Source of the DNA: Phocaeicola oris
GTDB lineage: Bacteria > Bacteroidota > Bacteroidia > Bacteroidales > Bacteroidaceae
Direction: 5' to 3'
Length of the DNA: 64,000 nt
Assembly: GCF_021295095.1 (NCBI RefSeq)
Contig: NZ_JAJLQX010000002.1
Location: 124,001 to 188,000 of the forward strand
Shown: one piece after another, positions 383-28,955 of the stretch
Layout of the letters: each line of letters starts with the position of its first letter
Numbering within the stretch: the first letter of the stretch is position 1
Notes under the pieces: model-generated
What the model was told of the DNA's origin: nothing
Databases searched by the model: none
Seen by the model: only the letters and a program-made list of their open reading frames with translations
Made by a program: the position numbers and the translations under genes

Positions 383-1272
383 ATGGTACAGATATTTAAA
401 AAGCTGGTGAAATTAGATGCATATAAATATGCCTATATATTTGTTATAGTTATTTTATTTGTAAGTTATTTTTCTGATGCGAAAAGAACTGTTGTATGGA
501 GTACGTCGGATGCATCAATTGGAACCATTAATCAAAATGGGATACTTACCATATCTAAAAATGGTTGTGTATATGTAATTGGTGAAACTAATGGGATGAA
601 GTTTAGCAAATTGGTATATATAGGAGTCCCAACTTATTTGCTTTCTTCCAAACATAAACCAGATGGTTTTGAAATTGAAGCAAAATGCATAGATGAAACC
701 TACAAAGCCAATATTGATAATATAAATGCATCGTTAATATTTAGATGGGGAGTAAAATTTCCAAACAAAGATATACGATGGATTGATACCAATAGCCCAT
801 CAGTATTCATACCTATAGAAGACAAAGATGCTGTTGTATTTCTTAAAATTATAGACAGTAATGGAAAAGAATCTCCACTTCAATCTGTAAAGTGTACAGC
901 GACGGATATTTTTTACGCATCAAATAATAGGCTGTTACTTGACACAGCAAAAAAATATACAAAGAAGATGGGACTACGTATTCATACAAATACGGCAAGA
1001 TATACCTTACTAGAGATATTTCTTTGTCTAAAGAATATGAAGGTGACATCTGGACTTCTACGAAAGCTAAAGTATATAGCCCGTTTAATAGTACCTACAT
1101 AATACCTGTGTCAAGAGGGGAAATGTCCATTAAAGATGTTCTTCCACAAGAAGAATTGGACTATATTGCACACAACATGCAGGTTGATCATACATGCCTT
1201 TATACGATAGCATTGCTAAACCCGGAGGACAAGTTTATACAAATTATTCCTGTAACTATAAAAATAAAATAA
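383..1272 (+). pseudogene. Membrane-anchored Big_2-like protein, split by a -1 frameshift at an A7 tract
   Basis: The first frame (383-1102) begins with a single hydrophobic segment at residues 17-31 (YAYIFVIVILFVSYF), followed by a stretch resembling a bacterial Ig-like Big_2 repeat (VVWSTSDASIGTINQNG, residues 37-53). After residue ~190 it turns into unlikely protein. The -1 frame from the run of seven A at 949-955 continues smoothly (IYKEDGTTYSYKYG, then the frame ending at 1272). I infer one original protein of about 296 residues, now out of frame. The tract reads A AAA AAA in the zero frame, so it is also a perfect -1 slippery heptamer. A missing A in the sequence, a real mutation, phase variation or programmed slippage would all fit. 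Function unknown; the stop lies 1 bp before the next gene, suggesting an operon. Confidence 0.6.
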
Positions 1273-1273
1273 T

Positions 1274-1909
1274 ATGTTCAAGTACATTTTAATTTTCTCT
1301 ACAACATTGCTTATTACGTGTAGCTTGATAGGTTGTTCAAAAGATAAAGATGGAACCATTACTGTGTATGGATATGCTAGCGTTAATGGTGTCGCATATA
1401 AAGATTATGTGTCTATACATGATGCTTTCCACCCTGATCTTCCAATAAAGCCAACATTGTTCAATGGTGATAGATTAGGTGTTTATAACGATAGTATTTT
1501 TATTTTCCAATTTATGTTTAGAAGTATTCAAAGTCAAACACCATTATGGTTGTTTGGAGCTTTTCGTATCCCTCAAGGTGAAGTCTTTCCAAATTTGGAT
1601 AAATCTTACCAATTATCAAAGAATTTAATGTACGATAAAGACAGAACTATCTTTGAAGATTTCTTGAAATATATACCAGTTTCTGAAAACAACAATGATA
1701 GTAGGGGTATCGCTATTATTATAGATTATAATAAGTTGCCATCAGCAACATCTATAGATGGCACTATTATTTTTAAGAAATTTAATAATAGAACTAAAAA
1801 GTTAGACGGTGAGATTTATCTCTATTCCAATGATGAATTCCCTATTTCATATAAGTTAGAGGGACATTTTTCTGATGTTTTATCCTATAACAAAGTACAA
1901 TTACAATGA
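1274..1909 (+). CDS. Putative lipoprotein of unknown function
   Basis: This 211-residue protein has a clear lipoprotein signal: a hydrophobic segment ending in the lipobox LIGC (Cys21) followed by Ser-Lys-Asp, the kind of sequence that sends lipoproteins to the Bacteroidetes outer membrane. The mature part is rich in beta-strand-type sequence (GTITVYGYASVNGVAYKD; DGTIIFKKF) and resembles the many Bacteroides lipoproteins of unknown-function families; I do not assign a family. It starts directly behind the Big_2-like gene and its stop overlaps the ATG at 1906 as ATGA, so the downstream gene was probably translationally coupled to it. Confidence 0.7.
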   Translation: MFKYILIFSTTLLITCSLIGCSKDKDGTITVYGYASVNGVAYKDYVSIHDAFHPDLPIKPTLFNGDRLGVYNDSIFIFQFMFRSIQSQTPLWLFGAFRIPQGEVFPNLDKSYQLSKNLMYDKDRTIFEDFLKYIPVSENNNDSRGIAIIIDYNKLPSATSIDGTIIFKKFNNRTKKLDGEIYLYSNDEFPISYKLEGHFSDVLSYNKVQLQ

Positions 1910-2216
1910 AAAAAGTGTTTTTAGAATTATTCCGTTATTTGCTCTAATGTTTTTCTTTACAGCTTGCCATGACGATATTTACTCAGATATAACTAATGGC
2001 GGGAATGGTGTAGAGCATAATAGACAGCCTTTGGACAGTATGGATTTATACAATATCCAAATAGACAAGAGTACTATCCTGACTAATCTTATCCGCAATA
2101 ATAATGGCAGATATTATCTCGACCTTACAGAACAGGATGCAGAAATTTTAGGTATAAAATCAGAGCTTTACAACAACGCTCTTCGAAATGTTGAGCAAAT
2201 GAATAACAATAAATAA
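1875..2216 (+). CDS. Small putative lipoprotein with a displaced start (poly-A indel)
   Basis: The reading frame encodes a lipoprotein-like N-terminus (IIPLFALMFFFTAC, then HDD) and a soluble tail of about 80 residues. The best start, ATG 1906, overlaps the previous stop as ATGA but is out of frame with the body: from ATG 1906 the six A at 1909-1914 give a 13-residue dead end. One more A would give MKKSVFRIIPLFALMFFFTAC, a textbook signal peptide. In the present sequence the only in-frame starts are ATG 1875, inside the previous gene, or ATG 1947. The gene is therefore either frameshifted or in an off state. The body contains NNNGRYYLDLTEQDAEILGI, which I do not recognise. Confidence 0.5.
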   Translation: MFYPITKYNYNEKSVFRIIPLFALMFFFTACHDDIYSDITNGGNGVEHNRQPLDSMDLYNIQIDKSTILTNLIRNNNGRYYLDLTEQDAEILGIKSELYNNALRNVEQMNNNK

Positions 2217-2255: not shown

Positions 2256-3308
2256 ATGAACTCTTTATTGACAACAGTATTAGCTTTATCTGCGGCATCA
2301 TGCTCTAATGATGATGCTATACAAACAGAAACAACTCACAGTGAGAAACATGTTGCGTACGTTGCAACATTGAGTACAGAACAGCAAAAGTTGCTACTAT
2401 CAACAGGAAATCCTTTTGGTAACGCCCAACAAAAGGATGCATGGACAACAACCATTGCATCTACAATTCCAACACGTTGGGGATTGTTTGACGATCCGCG
2501 TATTTCTGTTTCTACAAGAGCAATTGGCATATATGGATTTTATCCTGCACAATATTGGACAATGCTTAGAGTGAAGTTCCTTAAGCTCCCTGGGAAGATA
2601 AAAGATGGGGCTATTCTTGCTATAGCAGAAATGGAAGAACAGACAAATGTACGTTTCTATAACTCTATAGAGGATCCGGAATACTATGAGCCATATCACA
2701 TAAAACTTCCAAACATTGCTGTCAGAATGGATTCTGGTAGAGAAGGAAGCGGTAACTACGGCTTAGTAGGTGGTGAACAATATATAAATGTCCCAACAAC
2801 TCTTGAGAATGCAGACGCAAATGAGATAAAGCGATTCTTCTTGCATGCATTCTGTAATGCTGCAGGAATGTTCAATGAACAACAGCGACCAGATCGTGAT
2901 AATTACGTGAAAATTGATTTTAACAATGTCAAGGACAATTGCAAGTCGGCTTTTGATAAGATAAAGAGCAACTACACTACTATGGGAATGTTTGATATGT
3001 TCTCCATTACCCTTGCATCGTCAAAAGATTTCTCAAAGAATGGATTAAATACTATAACTACAAAAACGGGACTTGGTATTGCTATAAATTATACACTTTC
3101 TACACAGGATAAGGCTTTCCTGAATTCTCATTATCTACCTTACATAGCAAGAAAAGACAACTATGTTGAATTAGATGATGTGTATGATCAATCAGGCAGA
3201 CGCCTAACAGAAGAAGAGCGTTTACAGCTACAGAACCAAATAAATGCCCAAAGAGGACTTTATGGAGTTCCTCCTGCAAATGGTCGTACAGAGTTGGTAG
3301 ACTGGTAA
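2256..3308 (+). CDS. Astacin-like (M12A) lipoprotein with a dead zinc site
   Basis: A 350-residue protein with a short signal and lipobox-like Cys16 (SAASC, then SNDD). Residues ~85-260 follow the astacin fold: RWG near residue 73, a helix MEEQTNVRFY, VGGEQYINVP in place of the VGGGQ strand, then HAFCNAAGMFNE (197-208) followed by RPDRDNYVKI, which is the signature that follows the zinc motif in astacins. The zinc motif HExxHxxGxxHE is altered: His197 and Gly204 remain, but Glu198 is Ala, His201 is Asn and His207 is Asn. The Met-turn SxMHY is SITLA at 250-254, so its Met and Tyr are also lost. By family knowledge it cannot bind zinc or cleave peptides. It may be a binding or decoy protein; this is inference. 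The start is uncertain because the n-region lacks a positive charge. Confidence 0.75.
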   Translation: MNSLLTTVLALSAASCSNDDAIQTETTHSEKHVAYVATLSTEQQKLLLSTGNPFGNAQQKDAWTTTIASTIPTRWGLFDDPRISVSTRAIGIYGFYPAQYWTMLRVKFLKLPGKIKDGAILAIAEMEEQTNVRFYNSIEDPEYYEPYHIKLPNIAVRMDSGREGSGNYGLVGGEQYINVPTTLENADANEIKRFFLHAFCNAAGMFNEQQRPDRDNYVKIDFNNVKDNCKSAFDKIKSNYTTMGMFDMFSITLASSKDFSKNGLNTITTKTGLGIAINYTLSTQDKAFLNSHYLPYIARKDNYVELDDVYDQSGRRLTEEERLQLQNQINAQRGLYGVPPANGRTELVDW

Positions 3309-3759: not shown

Positions 3760-5766
3760 CTATAATTCTTTTAATAAATATTTTAACCGAGGCTCATTTT
3801 TGATTCGTTCAATCTCAAAATCAACGAGGAAAAGTATATCCTGTTTGATTCTCTTATAATTGGCTTCGATAGCCTCTTTGAGGTTATCGGAGCTATTTTC
3901 GTTTCGGAATATATTGATTACCGGGATGGGCTGGTATGCTTTCATTTCGGCAGAAACTTTGGCACTATCCACAACAATCTCTGCGTGGAAAATCTTCTGC
4001 TCAATTCGCTCATCAAAGTTGTCGGACACAGCTCCTACAAACATACCTTGGGTAAGGTTGCTAATCTTACTGGCAGGAATCAAACTGTCCAACTGCGTAG
4101 ATATGGACGTGGACTTATCGTTGCGGTTGATAGTCATTGATTGACGTTGCTGGAGGACTTTGCCAAAGCGTTCCGAGAGCGTTTTGGCTGTTTCTCCAAC
4201 TACCTGCCCCGAGAACACATTACCAACGGTGTTTTGTATCACCTTGCTTTCTTTGTCTCCATAATCGCGGGTAAGTTGTGAGAAGTCCTGAAAGCCCAAA
4301 CACACCGCCACTTTATTGCTTCGTGCAGTAGCAATAAGGTTGTCAAGCCCACGAAAGTAGATGGTCGGCAACTCGTCGATTATCACAGACGATTTGAGCT
4401 GCTTCTTCTTATTGATGAGCTTCACGATACGGCTATTGTAAAGTCCGAGTGCTGCCGAATAGATATTCTGTCGGTCAGGGTTGTTACCTACAACAAGGAC
4501 TTTCGGCTCATTGGGATTGTTTATGTCAAGTGAAAAATCATCGCCCGTCATCACCCAATAGAGAGCAGGGCTTATCATACGAGACAGTGGTATTTTGGCA
4601 CTGGCTATCTGTCCCTGCAACTGGTCCTGCGCTCCGCCTTCCCAAGCATCCATAAAGGGTGAAAGGTAGTTGGCAAGCTCATCGTAGGAGGTGAGTATCG
4701 GGAATATCTGTGCGTAGGGACGGTTCAGGAACTCAATAGCATGTGGAAACGTGCAATACTTCCCGTCCTCATAGATTTTCAGAAACCAAATGATGGCAGC
4801 CAGCAAGATAATCGGTGACTCTACAAAGAAATCTCCCTGCTTTTGTATCCACGAACGGTTCAAGTTGAGCATGATGGTGTAGGCACTTTCGTAAGCATCC
4901 GATATATCCGTCATAAAGGCAGGATTGATAGGATTGCACCGATGCGATTTCCTCGGATCGTCAAAGTTAATTACATAGAACTGTGGTTTTACCTTGTAGG
5001 CATCTAAATGATGAAGCAGGTGATTGTAAGCTATCTCTGAAAGGTCGGGAAATTTATAGTCGTAGATGTACATGGCAAAGCCTTTCTCTATCTGCTGCTT
5101 GATGTAGTTGTTCACGATAGCGTAGGACTTACCCGAACCCGGTGTTCCAAGTACCATTGAGGCACGAAAGGGGTTGACTACGTTAATCCAACCGTTGTTC
5201 CACTTCTTCTTATAGTAAAAACGTGTAGGCAGATTGACAGAATACTCATTCTCCATCAGTCGGGTTTCCTGCATGAAGCTTTCATTTTCCGTGTTGAACA
5301 CATCGTCCATCAGGTTGTTTTTGAGTAAACGGCTCATCCATACACCTCCCATCAGCAGACAGATATAGCCCACAGAGAGCGTGAAGATATAAAGCGAGGC
5401 TGCACCGACCTTACCGATCGGCAATGCTAAGAGCCACCAGTTGAGGAAGAAAAGCACAAAACCGGAGAAAAGTATTGTCCAAATCTTCGGCCATGTAATT
5501 TTCTCTTCCTTCACGCCTTTTGTCCCCAAACAGGACAGTGCAAGGAATACCACACAAAAGAGTTTCGTCCAAAGTATGGACGAGAACAAGCCCGCCGTGT
5601 GTTGGAAATTCATCAGAATTCTGTTGACGACGCCGAGTGTAAAATGCCACTCCTGAAATGCCTCGTAGCAGAACCAATAGCAGTTGGTAAGTAGGAATAT
5701 CACTGATATGCCCCGCATAAAGTCCATCACCTTACCCAATGCCCTTAAATCATCTTCTTGTGCCAT
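3760..5766 (-). CDS. mobC: MobC, type IV coupling protein (TraG/VirD4 family)
   Basis: This 668-residue inner-membrane ATPase links the relaxosome to the conjugation channel. Four hydrophobic segments occupy roughly residues 15-150 (for example WTILFSGFVLFFLNWWLLAL). Walker A GTPGSGKS sits near residue 207, and Walker B VIIDELP near 460; QDFSQLTRDYGDKE and the following NTVGNVFSG are typical of the family. Its length fits Bacteroides MobC proteins. It is the last gene of the minus-strand run mobA-mobB-mobC, separated from mobB by 83 bp. A remnant of a related gene lies just downstream. Confidence 0.93.
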   Translation of the reverse strand: MAQEDDLRALGKVMDFMRGISVIFLLTNCYWFCYEAFQEWHFTLGVVNRILMNFQHTAGLFSSILWTKLFCVVFLALSCLGTKGVKEEKITWPKIWTILFSGFVLFFLNWWLLALPIGKVGAASLYIFTLSVGYICLLMGGVWMSRLLKNNLMDDVFNTENESFMQETRLMENEYSVNLPTRFYYKKKWNNGWINVVNPFRASMVLGTPGSGKSYAIVNNYIKQQIEKGFAMYIYDYKFPDLSEIAYNHLLHHLDAYKVKPQFYVINFDDPRKSHRCNPINPAFMTDISDAYESAYTIMLNLNRSWIQKQGDFFVESPIILLAAIIWFLKIYEDGKYCTFPHAIEFLNRPYAQIFPILTSYDELANYLSPFMDAWEGGAQDQLQGQIASAKIPLSRMISPALYWVMTGDDFSLDINNPNEPKVLVVGNNPDRQNIYSAALGLYNSRIVKLINKKKQLKSSVIIDELPTIYFRGLDNLIATARSNKVAVCLGFQDFSQLTRDYGDKESKVIQNTVGNVFSGQVVGETAKTLSERFGKVLQQRQSMTINRNDKSTSISTQLDSLIPASKISNLTQGMFVGAVSDNFDERIEQKIFHAEIVVDSAKVSAEMKAYQPIPVINIFRNENSSDNLKEAIEANYKRIKQDILFLVDFEIERIKNEPRLKYLLKEL

Positions 5767-5849: not shown

Positions 5850-7130
5850 TTATCTTTTCCTCCGTCTGAGATTGACTTTGCTTTGCCTGCGAAGTTTACG
5901 CTGCCAAGCCGCTTCTTTCCAATCATCGTTGTTCGTAGATGTGGATGGGTCGCCCATCATGTCCTCGATTAGTTCATTGACAAGGTTGTCACCTTCCTCA
6001 GCATTGGATTGTAAAGGTTGGCCAGTTGCCGATTGTTCCAAACGAGCAAACGGACTGCCATACAGCGTTTCGTCCAAGAATGAGTTATGAGCAGGATTGG
6101 AAAAATAGCCATTGAATACATTGGCGGCATATCCCTTGCCCAATCTGGAACCATTGAGTGCAACACCCTGCTCGTCATCAATAAAGGTAATGCCGTAAAT
6201 TCTTCCATTATCATTCTTTCGGATTACCACACGCAAGCCTTGTTCCTCCAATCTTTGCCGAAGTTCTTTCTCCGTATTGGGAGAGGTACGCATTGTTTGT
6301 AACACCTTGTTCCTTATGGTTGGTATCAGTGGCTTGATGGTTTGCTTGGACTTTTGCATCCTGTTCTGTACGGCAGTATAGCCCACACCACGACCGATGT
6401 CCGATGCGTTGATGGGTGTACTTATTTTGCCTCCCTTATCATCAGTCGGAACATAGACCAGTCCATCGTATTTCTTTCCCCGAAACTCCGTCTTTACTTC
6501 TTCTACGGCAAGGTTATATTTGCTCAGAATGGCGTTCAGTTCTCCTAATGAACAAAACTTATAATGTTTCAGCACCATGCGGACAACGCTTGCCACCTGC
6601 TCCTTGATATTCCTTTTACCAATATCTACCTTGGGCGTTTCTGCTACTGCCTTCTCAGTAACCTTTGAACTTGGAATGAGACCAAATTTTCTTTCCAAGG
6701 CATCGGTAATTTGCTTGCTCCGCCGTTTCTCAAACTTATCATTAATCTTCTGCCCACGACTGTCCACCCGAAGTGATACGATGTGTATATGCTCACGGGC
6801 GATGTCGCTGTGCTTGAATACGATATAAGGTTGATTGCCGTAGCCGAGTGCCTCCATATACTCCTTGGCAATCTGCGTGAGTGTTTCATCTGAGAGCTTC
6901 TCGTCTGGATGCGGGTTAAGGGAACAATGGAACACCGTCTTCTTCGTTCGGCATTTCTTGGGTATCAATGCCTCCATGTCGGCAAGCACGTCCTCCATCG
7001 TATAACGTCCCTCTCTGTCCTGATACAACTCAGCGGCAAGGAGAATGCTTGCTTCCCCTTTCTCCACCTTTTTGAAGTTATAGCCGAGTGCCCCTCCAAG
7101 GTTTTCCGTGGCAGAAATCTTGGCAATCAT
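5850..7130 (-). CDS. mobB: MobB, relaxase / mobilisation nuclease
   Basis: A 426-residue relaxase that would nick oriT and pilot the single strand into the recipient. The N-terminal ~150 residues carry the relaxase fold: FHCSLNPHPDEKLSD, then the metal-binding motif HSDIAREHIHIVSLRVD around residues 104-120 with the spaced histidines of the family (PF03432 type). The C-terminal half is basic and probably DNA-binding. The GTG/ATG region overlaps mobA by 4 bp, indicating translational coupling. The order mobA-mobB-mobC matches Bacteroides conjugative transposons. Confidence 0.92.
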   Translation of the reverse strand: MIAKISATENLGGALGYNFKKVEKGEASILLAAELYQDREGRYTMEDVLADMEALIPKKCRTKKTVFHCSLNPHPDEKLSDETLTQIAKEYMEALGYGNQPYIVFKHSDIAREHIHIVSLRVDSRGQKINDKFEKRRSKQITDALERKFGLIPSSKVTEKAVAETPKVDIGKRNIKEQVASVVRMVLKHYKFCSLGELNAILSKYNLAVEEVKTEFRGKKYDGLVYVPTDDKGGKISTPINASDIGRGVGYTAVQNRMQKSKQTIKPLIPTIRNKVLQTMRTSPNTEKELRQRLEEQGLRVVIRKNDNGRIYGITFIDDEQGVALNGSRLGKGYAANVFNGYFSNPAHNSFLDETLYGSPFARLEQSATGQPLQSNAEEGDNLVNELIEDMMGDPSTSTNNDDWKEAAWQRKLRRQSKVNLRRRKR

Positions 7131-20593: not shown

Positions 20594-21490
20594 ATGGATA
20601 CACTATGTATAATCGGCAATGGTTTTGACCTCCATCACGGCATAGCATCTTCTTATGAAGATTTTAGACAGTATGCATGGAAAAAATGTGGCTTAGATGG
20701 TTATTGGATAGGACAATTAGAAGCATGCTACCCTACAAAAAATAAAGATGGGAAACTTGAACTATGGTGCGACCTTGAATACGCATTAGGGAATATAGAT
20801 TTCCAAAATGCATTTGATGAATCAACAGAAGATGTCGAATTAGAGGAAGACCATGAAATGCGTTATCAGGCACAAATGGAGGATGCTCCAGAATACTATT
20901 TGGAAATGATGTTTGAAGTGTTTCATCGTATATTTGAAGAATGGGTTAATCAAATAGATATAAATGTCTCACCTGTTTCTTTGCCAAATTTTGATAGAAA
21001 CAGTCTGTTTCTTTCTTTCAACTATACAGATACATTAGAGAAACTTTACAGCATTCCTCAAAGACAGATTAATTATATACACGGAAGACGCTGCTGTTCT
21101 AACAATTTAGTTGTTGGGCATATAAATAACCTTAATGGAAATGATTTCCTTTCTGCAGACCCAATGATATATGAATATGCAGCATACGATAATATTGCAA
21201 AAGTTGTAAATGAACAACGTAAAAGCATTTCTGACATAATTAGTAATAATGCGAGATATTGGAATAATTTAGCTGGAATTAGAAGAATTGTTGTTTATGG
21301 GCACTCTTTATCCGATATTGATTTTGGATATTTTGTGGAGATAGCTAAAAATGTTGCATCAAACACTCAATGGCTTTTTTCAGTTTACTATAATAATCCC
21401 CAAGAGCGTAATAGAGAAGTTAAGCGAGTCAAAGACTTTATTAACAAATTAGGACTTACGTGTTCGAATTGTCAGACTTTTTGTATGTAA
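20594..21490 (+). CDS. AbiH-family abortive phage-infection protein
   Basis: A 298-residue protein starting with MDTLCIIGNGFDLHHG and SSYEDFRQYAWKKCG, the signature of AbiH (PF14253), a lactococcal-type abortive infection family. Other matching segments are FLSFNYTDTLEKLYSIP (residues ~138-154), YIHGRRCCSNNLVVGHINN (~160-178), and VVYGHSLSDIDFGYF (~235-249). AbiH is thought to act against phages through cell suicide or arrest; the mechanism is not known. The gene is AT-rich compared with the tra operon, has its own promoter and lies between terminators, so it is a cargo gene acquired separately. Confidence 0.85.
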   Translation: MDTLCIIGNGFDLHHGIASSYEDFRQYAWKKCGLDGYWIGQLEACYPTKNKDGKLELWCDLEYALGNIDFQNAFDESTEDVELEEDHEMRYQAQMEDAPEYYLEMMFEVFHRIFEEWVNQIDINVSPVSLPNFDRNSLFLSFNYTDTLEKLYSIPQRQINYIHGRRCCSNNLVVGHINNLNGNDFLSADPMIYEYAAYDNIAKVVNEQRKSISDIISNNARYWNNLAGIRRIVVYGHSLSDIDFGYFVEIAKNVASNTQWLFSVYYNNPQERNREVKRVKDFINKLGLTCSNCQTFCM

Positions 21491-26124: not shown

Positions 26125-27357
26125 TTATTTTGAGTTGATGCCCATAGCAACATTGAACTTGTCTAACTTGCCAGCCAGCTGTTCCATATCGTGTTCTATC
26201 TTCTTGTTGGTTATACGGGCATAAATTTGTGTAGTTTTAATGTTGGTATGTCCCAGCATCTTCGACACGCTTTCCATAGGAACGCCCTTGCTGAGCGACA
26301 TGGTCGCAAATGTATGTCGGGCAAGATGGAAGGTCAGATTCTTCTTGACACCGCAAAGGTCGGCAATTTCTTTTAAATATGCGTTGGTTTTCTGATTCGT
26401 TAGGATGGGAAATAGTTTGCCGTCCCGATAGGTCTTATGACTGTACTTGGCAATGATAGTCTTGGGAATGTCAAGCAATAAAACATTTGTCTCCACACTT
26501 GTTTTCTGCCTCTTGGTCATAATCCACTGCTTATCGTCAAGCGTAACGATGTTGTCCGGCGTAAGGTTGGACACGTCTATATATGCCAGACCTGTAAAGC
26601 AAGAGAAGATGAAAACATCCCTTACCAGTTCCAGGCGATGGATACCGAAATCTTTGTTGGCAATCTTCATGATTTCCTCGTCCGTAAGGAAGCCACGGTT
26701 TACCGGCTCCAAGTGGAAACGATGATTGAGGAATGGGTCGTGAAGAAGATAGCCACGCTTTTGCGCATAGATGGTCACGGTTTTCAGTGCCTTCAATTTC
26801 TTGACTGATGTGTTATAGGCACACCCAGCCGCCGTACTCAGATATAACTCAAAATCCTGTACTACGGATGGCGTGAACTCTGCCAGTCCAATATCTTTCT
26901 TCCCATACTTATAGATAAGGAATTCTGCGAAATGCCTTCTTAAAACGCTGTACTTTTGCAGGCTGTCCTTGCTGATGGTATGTCCGACACGCTGTCTGAC
27001 ATCTTCGTTGAACTTGTCGAATATAGGGAGAAAGGTCGTGTACTCCCTGTCTTTCCCGACAAAGAATGAGCGGATTTTATCCAATGACAAGGATTCATCA
27101 TCCTCGAATTTGTGGTAAATGTTATTCAGCATTGTGGAAATGGAGTCCAATGCGGCATTAGCGGATAAGGCTTCTGCCGTCCGACCTTTGAGCCTGCTGG
27201 TAGTGTTATTCCACAGCGACTTGTCCACGAATATTTTCGTAGATCCGAAATTAGCCATCTCTCCGTTAAGGAATACTCGGAGCATTACAGGCGACTTTCC
27301 TTCTTTGTTCTCATAGTTTGAACGTAGGTAGAAGGACACCTTAAAATTTGTTCTCAT
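26125..27357 (-). CDS. int: Tyrosine integrase of the conjugative element
   Basis: A 410-residue integrase with an N-terminal arm-binding domain (residues 1-100), a SAM-like core-binding domain (YGKKDIGLAEFTPSVVQDFE) and a tyrosine-recombinase catalytic domain. Arg-II and its His lie in HLARHTFATMSLSKG (about 341-355), His-III in MLGHTNIKTTQIYARI, and the likely nucleophile Tyr is near residue 379. At the Arg-I position the motif reads CFTGLAYIDV, with Ala in place of the usual Arg, as also happens in IntDOT-type enzymes. It would excise and integrate the element. It is the last gene before the tRNA-Ser. Confidence 0.93.
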   Translation of the reverse strand: MRTNFKVSFYLRSNYENKEGKSPVMLRVFLNGEMANFGSTKIFVDKSLWNNTTSRLKGRTAEALSANAALDSISTMLNNIYHKFEDDESLSLDKIRSFFVGKDREYTTFLPIFDKFNEDVRQRVGHTISKDSLQKYSVLRRHFAEFLIYKYGKKDIGLAEFTPSVVQDFELYLSTAAGCAYNTSVKKLKALKTVTIYAQKRGYLLHDPFLNHRFHLEPVNRGFLTDEEIMKIANKDFGIHRLELVRDVFIFSCFTGLAYIDVSNLTPDNIVTLDDKQWIMTKRQKTSVETNVLLLDIPKTIIAKYSHKTYRDGKLFPILTNQKTNAYLKEIADLCGVKKNLTFHLARHTFATMSLSKGVPMESVSKMLGHTNIKTTQIYARITNKKIEHDMEQLAGKLDKFNVAMGINSK

Positions 27358-28030: not shown

Positions 28031-28864
28031 TCATTCCTTTGTCCATCCCTTGAGATCACTCTTTGTAGGACCGGCTATCTTTATGGCGGATTTCCATTTT
28101 AACGTTTTTCCCGTGAATGTCTTGGTATAGGTATCGGTGCCGTTAGTCAATGTAAAGGTAGGATTGGGAACTCCCCCAATTTTCACACTCCCAATAAAAT
28201 AATAGCCATCCGATGCCGGATGTCCCGTGATGGTATCACCATAATCACCACTGCCAGCATAGGAGACACTCAGGTAGTTTGTATTTATACAGGGGAAAAG
28301 TTTATTGAGCATATCCTGTTCACTCAGTTTCCATGTTCCCTTGGCTAACCCTGTAACCGTGATTTTGACGATAGAAGAATTTATTCCCAACGTTAAATTC
28401 AGTCGGATGGTCTTCGTTTTATCGTCCACCGTATAAGGTTGCTCTGATGCCACCAAGATGTCCGGTACAGGTATTGAGTCCCATACGAAAAAATCTTTGC
28501 CCCAAGACGGAATTTTCGGCTCCGTTGTGACTCCGTCTATCCAAACAGCGGCACATCGTTTCTCGTCAGCCGTAACAATCTGATCGTTGGTCAGTGTCCC
28601 TGTGCATGAAGGCGTCCACTCCGTCCCGTCGTACGTCAATTTAAGCACACCGTTCATATTATCTTTAAATCCTACCCATACCACGTCGCCGTTTACAAAC
28701 GTCTGTTTCACCGCGCGCGTTTCCGCTGCTCCGGCAGCCTGCTCGGTTGTTATGTTCACTTCAAACCGATATTGCTCATCCGTCTGCCGGGTTACTTCTT
28801 CCTCACTCGAGCAACTGCACAGCAAGGCTGTGCATGCCATCAAAGTTCCTAATGTCTTCTTCAT
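28031..28864 (-). CDS. Fimbrillin-family lipoprotein
   Basis: I use the ATG at 28864 (MKKTLGTLMACTALLCSCSS), which gives 277 residues; an upstream ATG at 28906 would put a charged extension before the signal. The lipobox is LCSC with a Ser-Ser-Glu-Glu tail. The body (ETRAVKQTFVNGDVVWVGF, then LTYDGTEWTPSC) is the Mfa_like_1/fimbrillin pattern of Bacteroidetes type V pili or anchored fimbrillin-like lipoproteins. It follows a short peptide gene, with 91 bp between, and the pair may be one operon. No anchor or usher genes are adjacent. Confidence 0.75.
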   Translation of the reverse strand: MKKTLGTLMACTALLCSCSSEEEVTRQTDEQYRFEVNITTEQAAGAAETRAVKQTFVNGDVVWVGFKDNMNGVLKLTYDGTEWTPSCTGTLTNDQIVTADEKRCAAVWIDGVTTEPKIPSWGKDFFVWDSIPVPDILVASEQPYTVDDKTKTIRLNLTLGINSSIVKITVTGLAKGTWKLSEQDMLNKLFPCINTNYLSVSYAGSGDYGDTITGHPASDGYYFIGSVKIGGVPNPTFTLTNGTDTYTKTFTGKTLKWKSAIKIAGPTKSDLKGWTKE

Positions 28865-28955
28865 TGTCTTTGCGATTTTAATGTTTTGTTTTGATTCTGT
28901 AATCACTTTCCATCAGACCTGCTGCGAGGTCAATCGGGAGATTCACGGCAAGCAT

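Follow-up and report, generated by a model that had tools for sequence, protein, structure and literature searches.

We describe here a gene in a 64,000-nucleotide stretch of the Phocaeicola oris genome (the whole stretch is called the window below) whose product is, as judged from its sequence, a conserved pseudopeptidase and not an astacin peptidase. The reading we prefer, with a little better than even confidence, is that this pseudo-astacin has been kept by selection after the loss of catalysis and acts as a surface binding subunit of a four-gene hydrolase cassette. Its relatives share the dead site and, for the most part, the neighbouring genes, and it has therefore probably become a binding component within a surface enzyme system and is not a broken gene.

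The astacin ancestry of the protein is clear from several comparisons. In a profile scan, residues 193-293 match Pfam Astacin (PF01400) with an E value of 7.5e-14, scoring 52.3 bits where the cutoff is 22.5, the same profile is present in 8/8 members of set A1, and the best PDB sequence matches are astacins. Confidence in the AlphaFold model is low (pLDDT 46.6, pTM 0.48), so that the cleft cannot be inspected, but the first 23 matches that Foldseek gave with it are all astacin-family chains, and the model, poor as it is, agrees with astacin. The zinc motif reads HAFCNAAGMFNE (residues 197-208, nucleotides 2844-2879), in which the first His is retained, the Glu has become Ala, and the second and third His have become Asn. 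Every clade member found has HAFCNAAGMFNE or HALCNVAGMYNE in place of HExxHxxGxxHE, and the Met-turn SxMxY is replaced by SIT[LMI]A in 11/11 dead rows of the alignment, the seven intact-motif rows having SVMGY, SIMLY or SIMGN. The protein thus agrees with the preliminary description, which had called it an astacin homologue with zinc motif and Met-turn both lost, and it presumably binds no zinc and has no protease activity.

The altered positions are not only lost but conserved in their new state. The dead zinc-site helix is the longest invariant run (13 residues) in eight sequences that are 50-99% identical to the window protein, a run of at least 13 invariant positions arose in only 2 of 20000 column shuffles of this alignment, and the codons of the helix vary synonymously. 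When the deep member L063 is added, 3 of the 13 helix positions become variable, and the longest stretch without variation is then four residues and lies elsewhere. Sixteen residues, including A198, N201, N207, T252, and A254, are invariant across the 11 dead rows and absent from the seven intact-motif rows, and the catalytic positions were thus altered and afterwards became fixed in the dead clade. The 11 dead rows group together as a single clade (support 100/100) in a 23-row tree, and do so again, with the same support, in an 18-row tree built without the motif columns; the dead clade joins the HEICH relatives with support of 88/91 only, the root being placed by midpoint. Codon-model omega is 0.054 for the 11 dead sequences versus 0.070 for seven intact-motif sequences, and pairs with unsaturated dS have dN/dS values of 0.12-0.40, although the omega values are rough because many pairs have reached synonymous saturation and kappa did not move from 1. 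Purifying selection maintains the dead clade, as the low omega and the fixed substituted residues show. Random decay as the origin of the dead motif is rejected by the single clade, the low omega, and the fixed substitutions with synonymous codon variation, and selection, which had been proposed at the outset in place of decay, stands.

The dead clade was found in 13 genomes (G000, G092, G258, G719, G784, G822, G851, G953, G1029, G1094, G1113, G1117, and G1223), ten of which have HAFCNAAGMFNE and three HALCNVAGMYNE. The reading frame is unbroken in 12/13, the copy in G1117, of the HALCNVAGMYNE form, having a premature stop. By sample, the clade is present in 3/301 genomes of the family (two draws with agreeing listed genomes), in the window's own genome alone among 393 of the order, and in 2/61, 8/398, and 3/158 genomes of three genera; the samples overlap, and the counts are lower bounds from a whole-genome search that used no motif pattern and in which a part of the candidates in each genome was scored for the larger samples. 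Ten loci from a separate search carry HAFCNAAGMFNE, among them loci from Prevotella koreensis, P. denticola, P. histicola, Hallella, Hoylesella, a Phocaeicola MAG, and Proteiniphilum, although this search was partly seeded by a dead-motif peptide pattern and is biased towards dead relatives, and these loci and the G genomes overlap and may sample the same species. A private mutation of the window strain is rejected; the nearest relatives are dead-motif proteins and not HExxHxxGxxHE proteins.

Outside the dead clade, the nearest relatives have HEICHAxGxLHE or HEIGHAIGLxHE together with the Met-turn Met; they are termed catalytic by motif only, and L007 lacks the Met-turn Tyr. The pseudo-astacin resembles these intact-motif Bacteroidales lipoproteins (L005/L023, L006/L024, L008/L026, L034, and L043) in being a lipoprotein of similar length with a common C-terminal extension (YLPY[IVT]ARxDxYxELD ... 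LQLQ), and a profile match between the two groups has an E value of 3e-58 over 322 columns; the intact-motif proteins differ from it in keeping HEI[CG]HAxGxxHE. With the M12A astacins (crayfish astacin, LAST-MAM, meprins, and myroilysin) it has in common the fold and an R-x-D-R-D-x-Y region after the zinc helix, but unlike them it has lost the zinc ligands, the catalytic Glu, and the Met-turn, and has extra N- and C-terminal parts. Metzincin pseudoproteases are known from animals, where the pseudo-ADAMs (ADAM2, 11, 22, 23, and others, of M12) are pseudopeptidases with protein-binding roles; these belong to a different family and typically keep the Met-turn that the pseudo-astacin has lost, and the parts of the review available to us name no pseudo-astacin (PMC11266112). 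A second source, likewise available in part, describes astacins as scattered outside Holozoa and there does not use the term 'inactive' (PMC9848320). In the available portions of the open-licence literature on bacterial astacins and pseudoproteases we found no report of this pseudo-astacin.

The protein carries a lipobox, as had been predicted, and Cys16 is followed by SNDD. The pattern C-S-[ND]-[DE]-[DET], counted from the presumed lipidation Cys, is present in 13/13 distinct clade proteins (two rows read by eye), and it resembles the surface export consensus SDDDD given for B. fragilis (PMC5080379, available in part). This export-signal motif suggests that the pseudo-astacin is displayed on the outer surface.

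Table 1. Features of the pseudo-astacin cassette and its surroundings. Positions are those of the window unless a locus is named.
Feature	Position	Strand	Remarks
Hydrolase remnant, N-terminal leader joined to C-terminal Big_2-like part	383..1102	+	~2.1 kb deletion near 469-483
Last part of hydrolase C-terminus, other frame	1024..1272	+	hydrolase residues 904-1014, 69% identity
Lipoprotein LP, 211 aa	1274..1909	+	no Pfam family
Small lipoprotein SLP, 113-aa frame	1875..2216	+	no Pfam family; start altered relative to relatives
Pseudo-astacin lipoprotein (PSAST)	2256..3308	+	open frame, 350 aa; Pfam Astacin match
Lipobox Cys16 then SNDD, like a surface-lipoprotein export signal	2301..2315	+	from sequence
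Dead zinc-site helix HAFCNAAGMFNEQ, residues 197-209	2844..2882	+	13 invariant residues in a row in 8 sequences
Dead Met-turn SITLA, residues 250-254	3003..3017	+	Met to Thr, Tyr to Ala
MobC/TraG-type coupling protein	3760..5766	-	YWFCY and T4SS-DNA_transf (Pfam)
DUF4377 lipoprotein, ~120 aa	L023:8135-8503, L024:9325-9696, L022:10034-10393		
Peptide-maturation-like neighbours	L016:7471-13049, L021:911-3603, L019:6272-11373, L022:2484-5701		C39-type transporters of L016 and L021 assigned by eye and by mutual similarity

In the relatives, the cassette has the order alpha/beta hydrolase (1,011-1,036 aa where intact), lipoprotein LP (~190-214 aa), small lipoprotein SLP (102-110 aa), and, last, the pseudo-astacin. 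The order of the latter three is constant in the distinct loci read, and the hydrolase is directly upstream in all of them except L103, where it is absent, and L014, where the contig ends. The hydrolase matches PGAP1, LCAT, and DUF676 in profile scans, has a Big_2-like part at its C-terminus, and retains GxSMGG, a conserved segment that includes an Asp, and, late in the sequence, an invariant His; its profile also weakly matches intimin and collagenase domain regions. Hydrolase sequence is present in 12/13 genomes with a dead astacin versus 0/7 with only intact-motif relatives. Among the 301 genomes of the family sample (E up to 1e-20) it occurs in exactly the three that have the dead astacin, for which the probability by chance is 2e-7, ignoring relatedness, and of 17 selected genomes (E up to 1e-8) nine of the ten with dead astacin have it (not G1029), against none of the seven with only intact-motif relatives. 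In the order, a hydrolase was found in 19/247 genomes, the window's own and 18 others; the hydrolases of these 18 are distant, and no astacin lies near them in the nine loci checked (L104-L112), so that the link, as far as checked, is confined to the close hydrolase subfamily. Of the four cassette proteins the pseudo-astacin is the slowest-evolving: in six cassettes its mean identity is 50.8% versus 40.8% for the hydrolase, with the pseudo-astacin higher in 14/15 pairs. LP and SLP are weakly conserved, and the mean identity of LP is itself too high because two values of 50% are probably short-overlap artefacts. We also note that in two comparisons (L018 with L021, and L063 with L064) the hydrolase frame is broken by single-base differences close to homopolymers 7 and 9 long, and these breaks between near-identical cassettes may be phase switching or sequencing error.

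The cassette of the window is itself partly decayed, with a deletion in the hydrolase, a frame change in SLP, and a start-codon change. The hydrolase, of ~1,011 aa and intact in L009 (P. koreensis) and L010 (P. denticola), is reduced to a remnant that is 97% identical to L009 on either side of the gap, and the product of 383..1102 matches hydrolase residues 754-915. Both lipoprotein genes that the preliminary description placed beside the pseudo-astacin are there, but its Big_2-like gene is not a gene of its own; we reject the idea of an independent adhesin, since this is a deleted and frameshifted part of the hydrolase, and its identity points to a partnership with the hydrolase in place of the decoy, adhesin or inhibitor role that the preliminary description had thought possible. 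The start of the SLP frame is altered by a one-base length difference from L009 in an A-run. In L009 and L010 the pseudo-astacin begins 10 codons upstream, and the window and L103 have ATA at that position (2226-2256), so that the true start of the window copy is uncertain; translation from the ATG that follows would yield a signal peptide that lacks basic residues, and export of the window copy may therefore be impaired. Elsewhere, the hydrolase is truncated in G1117 and missing in G1029 (L103). The window copy thus does show other decay in its cassette, but its nearest relatives carry the dead motif and not HExxHxxGxxHE, and the dead motif, being common to the whole clade, is older than the lesions in the window.

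These observations suggest the following sequence of events. An ancestral Bacteroidales astacin lipoprotein would have lost the catalytic Glu, two zinc-ligand His, and the Met and Tyr of the Met-turn, most simply once, and its descendants have been retained by purifying selection since then. The pseudo-astacin is the last gene of an exported cassette carried on conjugative transposons and at some chromosomal-looking sites, and its product would be a lipoprotein displayed on the outer surface. The metzincin cleft, rebuilt around H197, N201, N207, and T252, may bind a peptide or protein that it does not cleave, and the pseudo-astacin could in this way hold or position the hydrolase, or the target of the hydrolase, at the cell surface. 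The linkage within the cassette is established by the data above, and from it we infer the role of the hydrolase as partner, as we infer the binding of a ligand. The pseudo-astacin frame persists without an intact hydrolase in the window and L103, so that either the pseudo-astacin does not depend on this partner or these two copies are being lost.

An alternative, which we regard as unlikely, is that the cassette is an effector and protection module, in which the hydrolase is an exported antibacterial lipase, the three lipoproteins including the pseudo-astacin protect the producer, and the genes for protection persist in cells after loss of the hydrolase. Among 14 distinct cassettes the hydrolase is broken or absent in six (the window, L103, L015/L065, L018, L063, and L066), intact in seven (L009, L010, L011/L013/L020, L016, L017, L021, and L064), and cut by a contig end in one (L014/L113), and the pseudo-astacin frame is broken in only one (L066), an imbalance that speaks for such a module. 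However, the hydrolase gene is ~2.8 times longer, so that more breaks are expected in it, two of the breaks are the single-base differences described above, for which sequencing errors or phase switching are possible, and SLP in the window is altered as well. There are precedents, as far as the available parts of the sources go, in the T6SS lipase effector Tle3, a lipase-type hydrolase encoded together with an outer-membrane lipoprotein immunity protein, Tli3 (PMC9860674), and in the orphan immunity genes of Bacteroidales (PMC10470768). Unlike Tle3/Tli3, no T6SS gene was noticed in the cassette loci and the hydrolase carries a signal-like leader of its own, as judged by eye; moreover, the pseudo-astacin is the slowest-evolving part of the cassette, unlike the orphan immunity genes, which evolve rapidly according to the part of the source available (PMC12247911), and PADLOC gave no credible match.

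It is quite improbable, in our view, that the pseudo-astacin is a regulator or decoy for catalytic astacins that binds their substrates, propeptides, or inhibitors. Intact-motif relatives do occur in similar surroundings, with TetR-type and PLP-acyltransferase neighbours in common, and G719 carries both the dead and intact-motif kinds. This is, though, the only one of the 13 dead-astacin genomes in which an intact-motif relative was found, a lower bound in that others may be missed, and the intact-motif L022, L023, and L024 adjoin a DUF4377 lipoprotein instead of the hydrolase cassette. By analogy with the potempins beside Tannerella proteases, we take the DUF4377 lipoprotein to be a possible inhibitor or partner. 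Less credible again is a new enzyme with a different active site made up of H197, N201, N207, C200, and T252. These residues are fixed in 11/11 dead rows, down to ~40% identity, but C200 is present in the HEICH relatives too, a binding site would show the same conservation, and we know of no chemistry that matches this set. A pseudogene that simply happens to stay open would account for the lesions in the window cassette (the hydrolase deletion, the lipoprotein frame change, and the ATA codon) and for the stop in the G1117 copy, and neutral decay is a possible near future for the window copy, but for the clade it is contradicted by omega, the fixed residues, the single clade in the tree, and the frame kept in nearly all genomes, and as a general account we consider it barely credible.

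Returning to the surface binding subunit that we prefer, its mobility is supported by the location of the cassette, and the earlier view of the gene as mobile-element cargo is well founded, in that a MobC-type coupling-protein gene adjoins the cassette in the window, L009, L010, L018, L021, and L103; other transfer genes nearby were recognised by eye. In the window we take 5850..7130 (minus strand) to be a relaxase-like mobilization gene, and 26125..27357 (minus strand) to be an integrase-like gene, probably marking the right-hand part of a conjugative transposon, both by sequence inspection. On the far side of the cassette, a fragment of the 3' end of mobC (L019:11677-12018) ends at window position 18, and such a fragment flanks the cassette in the window, L009, L010, L018, and L021 (the last two by eye), with none listed in L103; the cassette therefore sits as if inserted at the end of mobC. 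The pseudo-astacins of P. koreensis and P. denticola are 99% identical, which fits a recent transfer. L063 and L064 sit among genes that look chromosomal by eye. Protease-family cargo has a parallel in the C10 cysteine protease genes on B. fragilis mobile elements, which belong to another family (PMC2873492, available in part).

The fullest form of our proposal, which we offer tentatively and as rather less probable than its opposite, goes further. The four genes would make up a mobile surface system that conjugative transposons have carried from one Bacteroidales family to another. In it a protease fold would have been turned into a fixed non-catalytic ligand site, with H197/N201/N207/T252 where the zinc site was, and the pseudo-astacin, as the core of the system and its slowest-evolving part, would be a receptor or scaffold for the exported PGAP1/LCAT-like hydrolase. 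This would represent the first conserved pseudo-astacin clade so far as the available parts of the two reviews cited above extend. If true, a conserved pseudo-metzincin of bacteria whose dead site and operon partner are both fixed would be a simple system in which to study the function of a protease cleft that does not cut, and Bacteroidales conjugative transposons would be moving an unexplained module of hydrolase and pseudoprotease between species. Annotation by domain only would probably label the pseudo-astacin a metallopeptidase, which is misleading.

The surroundings of these loci have some further features. A PLP-dependent acyltransferase (serine palmitoyltransferase/BioF-like) flanks L023, L024, L026, and L068 as well as L017 and L103, the match in L023 falling below the NCBIfam cutoffs, and a TetR-type regulator (by eye) flanks L023, L024, L026, L068, and L103 and was not seen in L017, where a contig end is nearby; it is as if one regulated cargo site swaps its contents between dead and intact-motif loci. 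Peptide-maturation-like neighbours (radical SAM, YcaO, C39 peptidase, and outer-membrane barrel) lie near several astacin loci of both kinds. In the window, an AbiH-like gene (GNGFDLxH; 20594-21490, plus strand) near the transfer genes is a candidate phage-defence gene, and a fimbrillin-like lipoprotein gene (28031-28906, minus strand) lies just outside the integrase-like gene, both recognised by eye.
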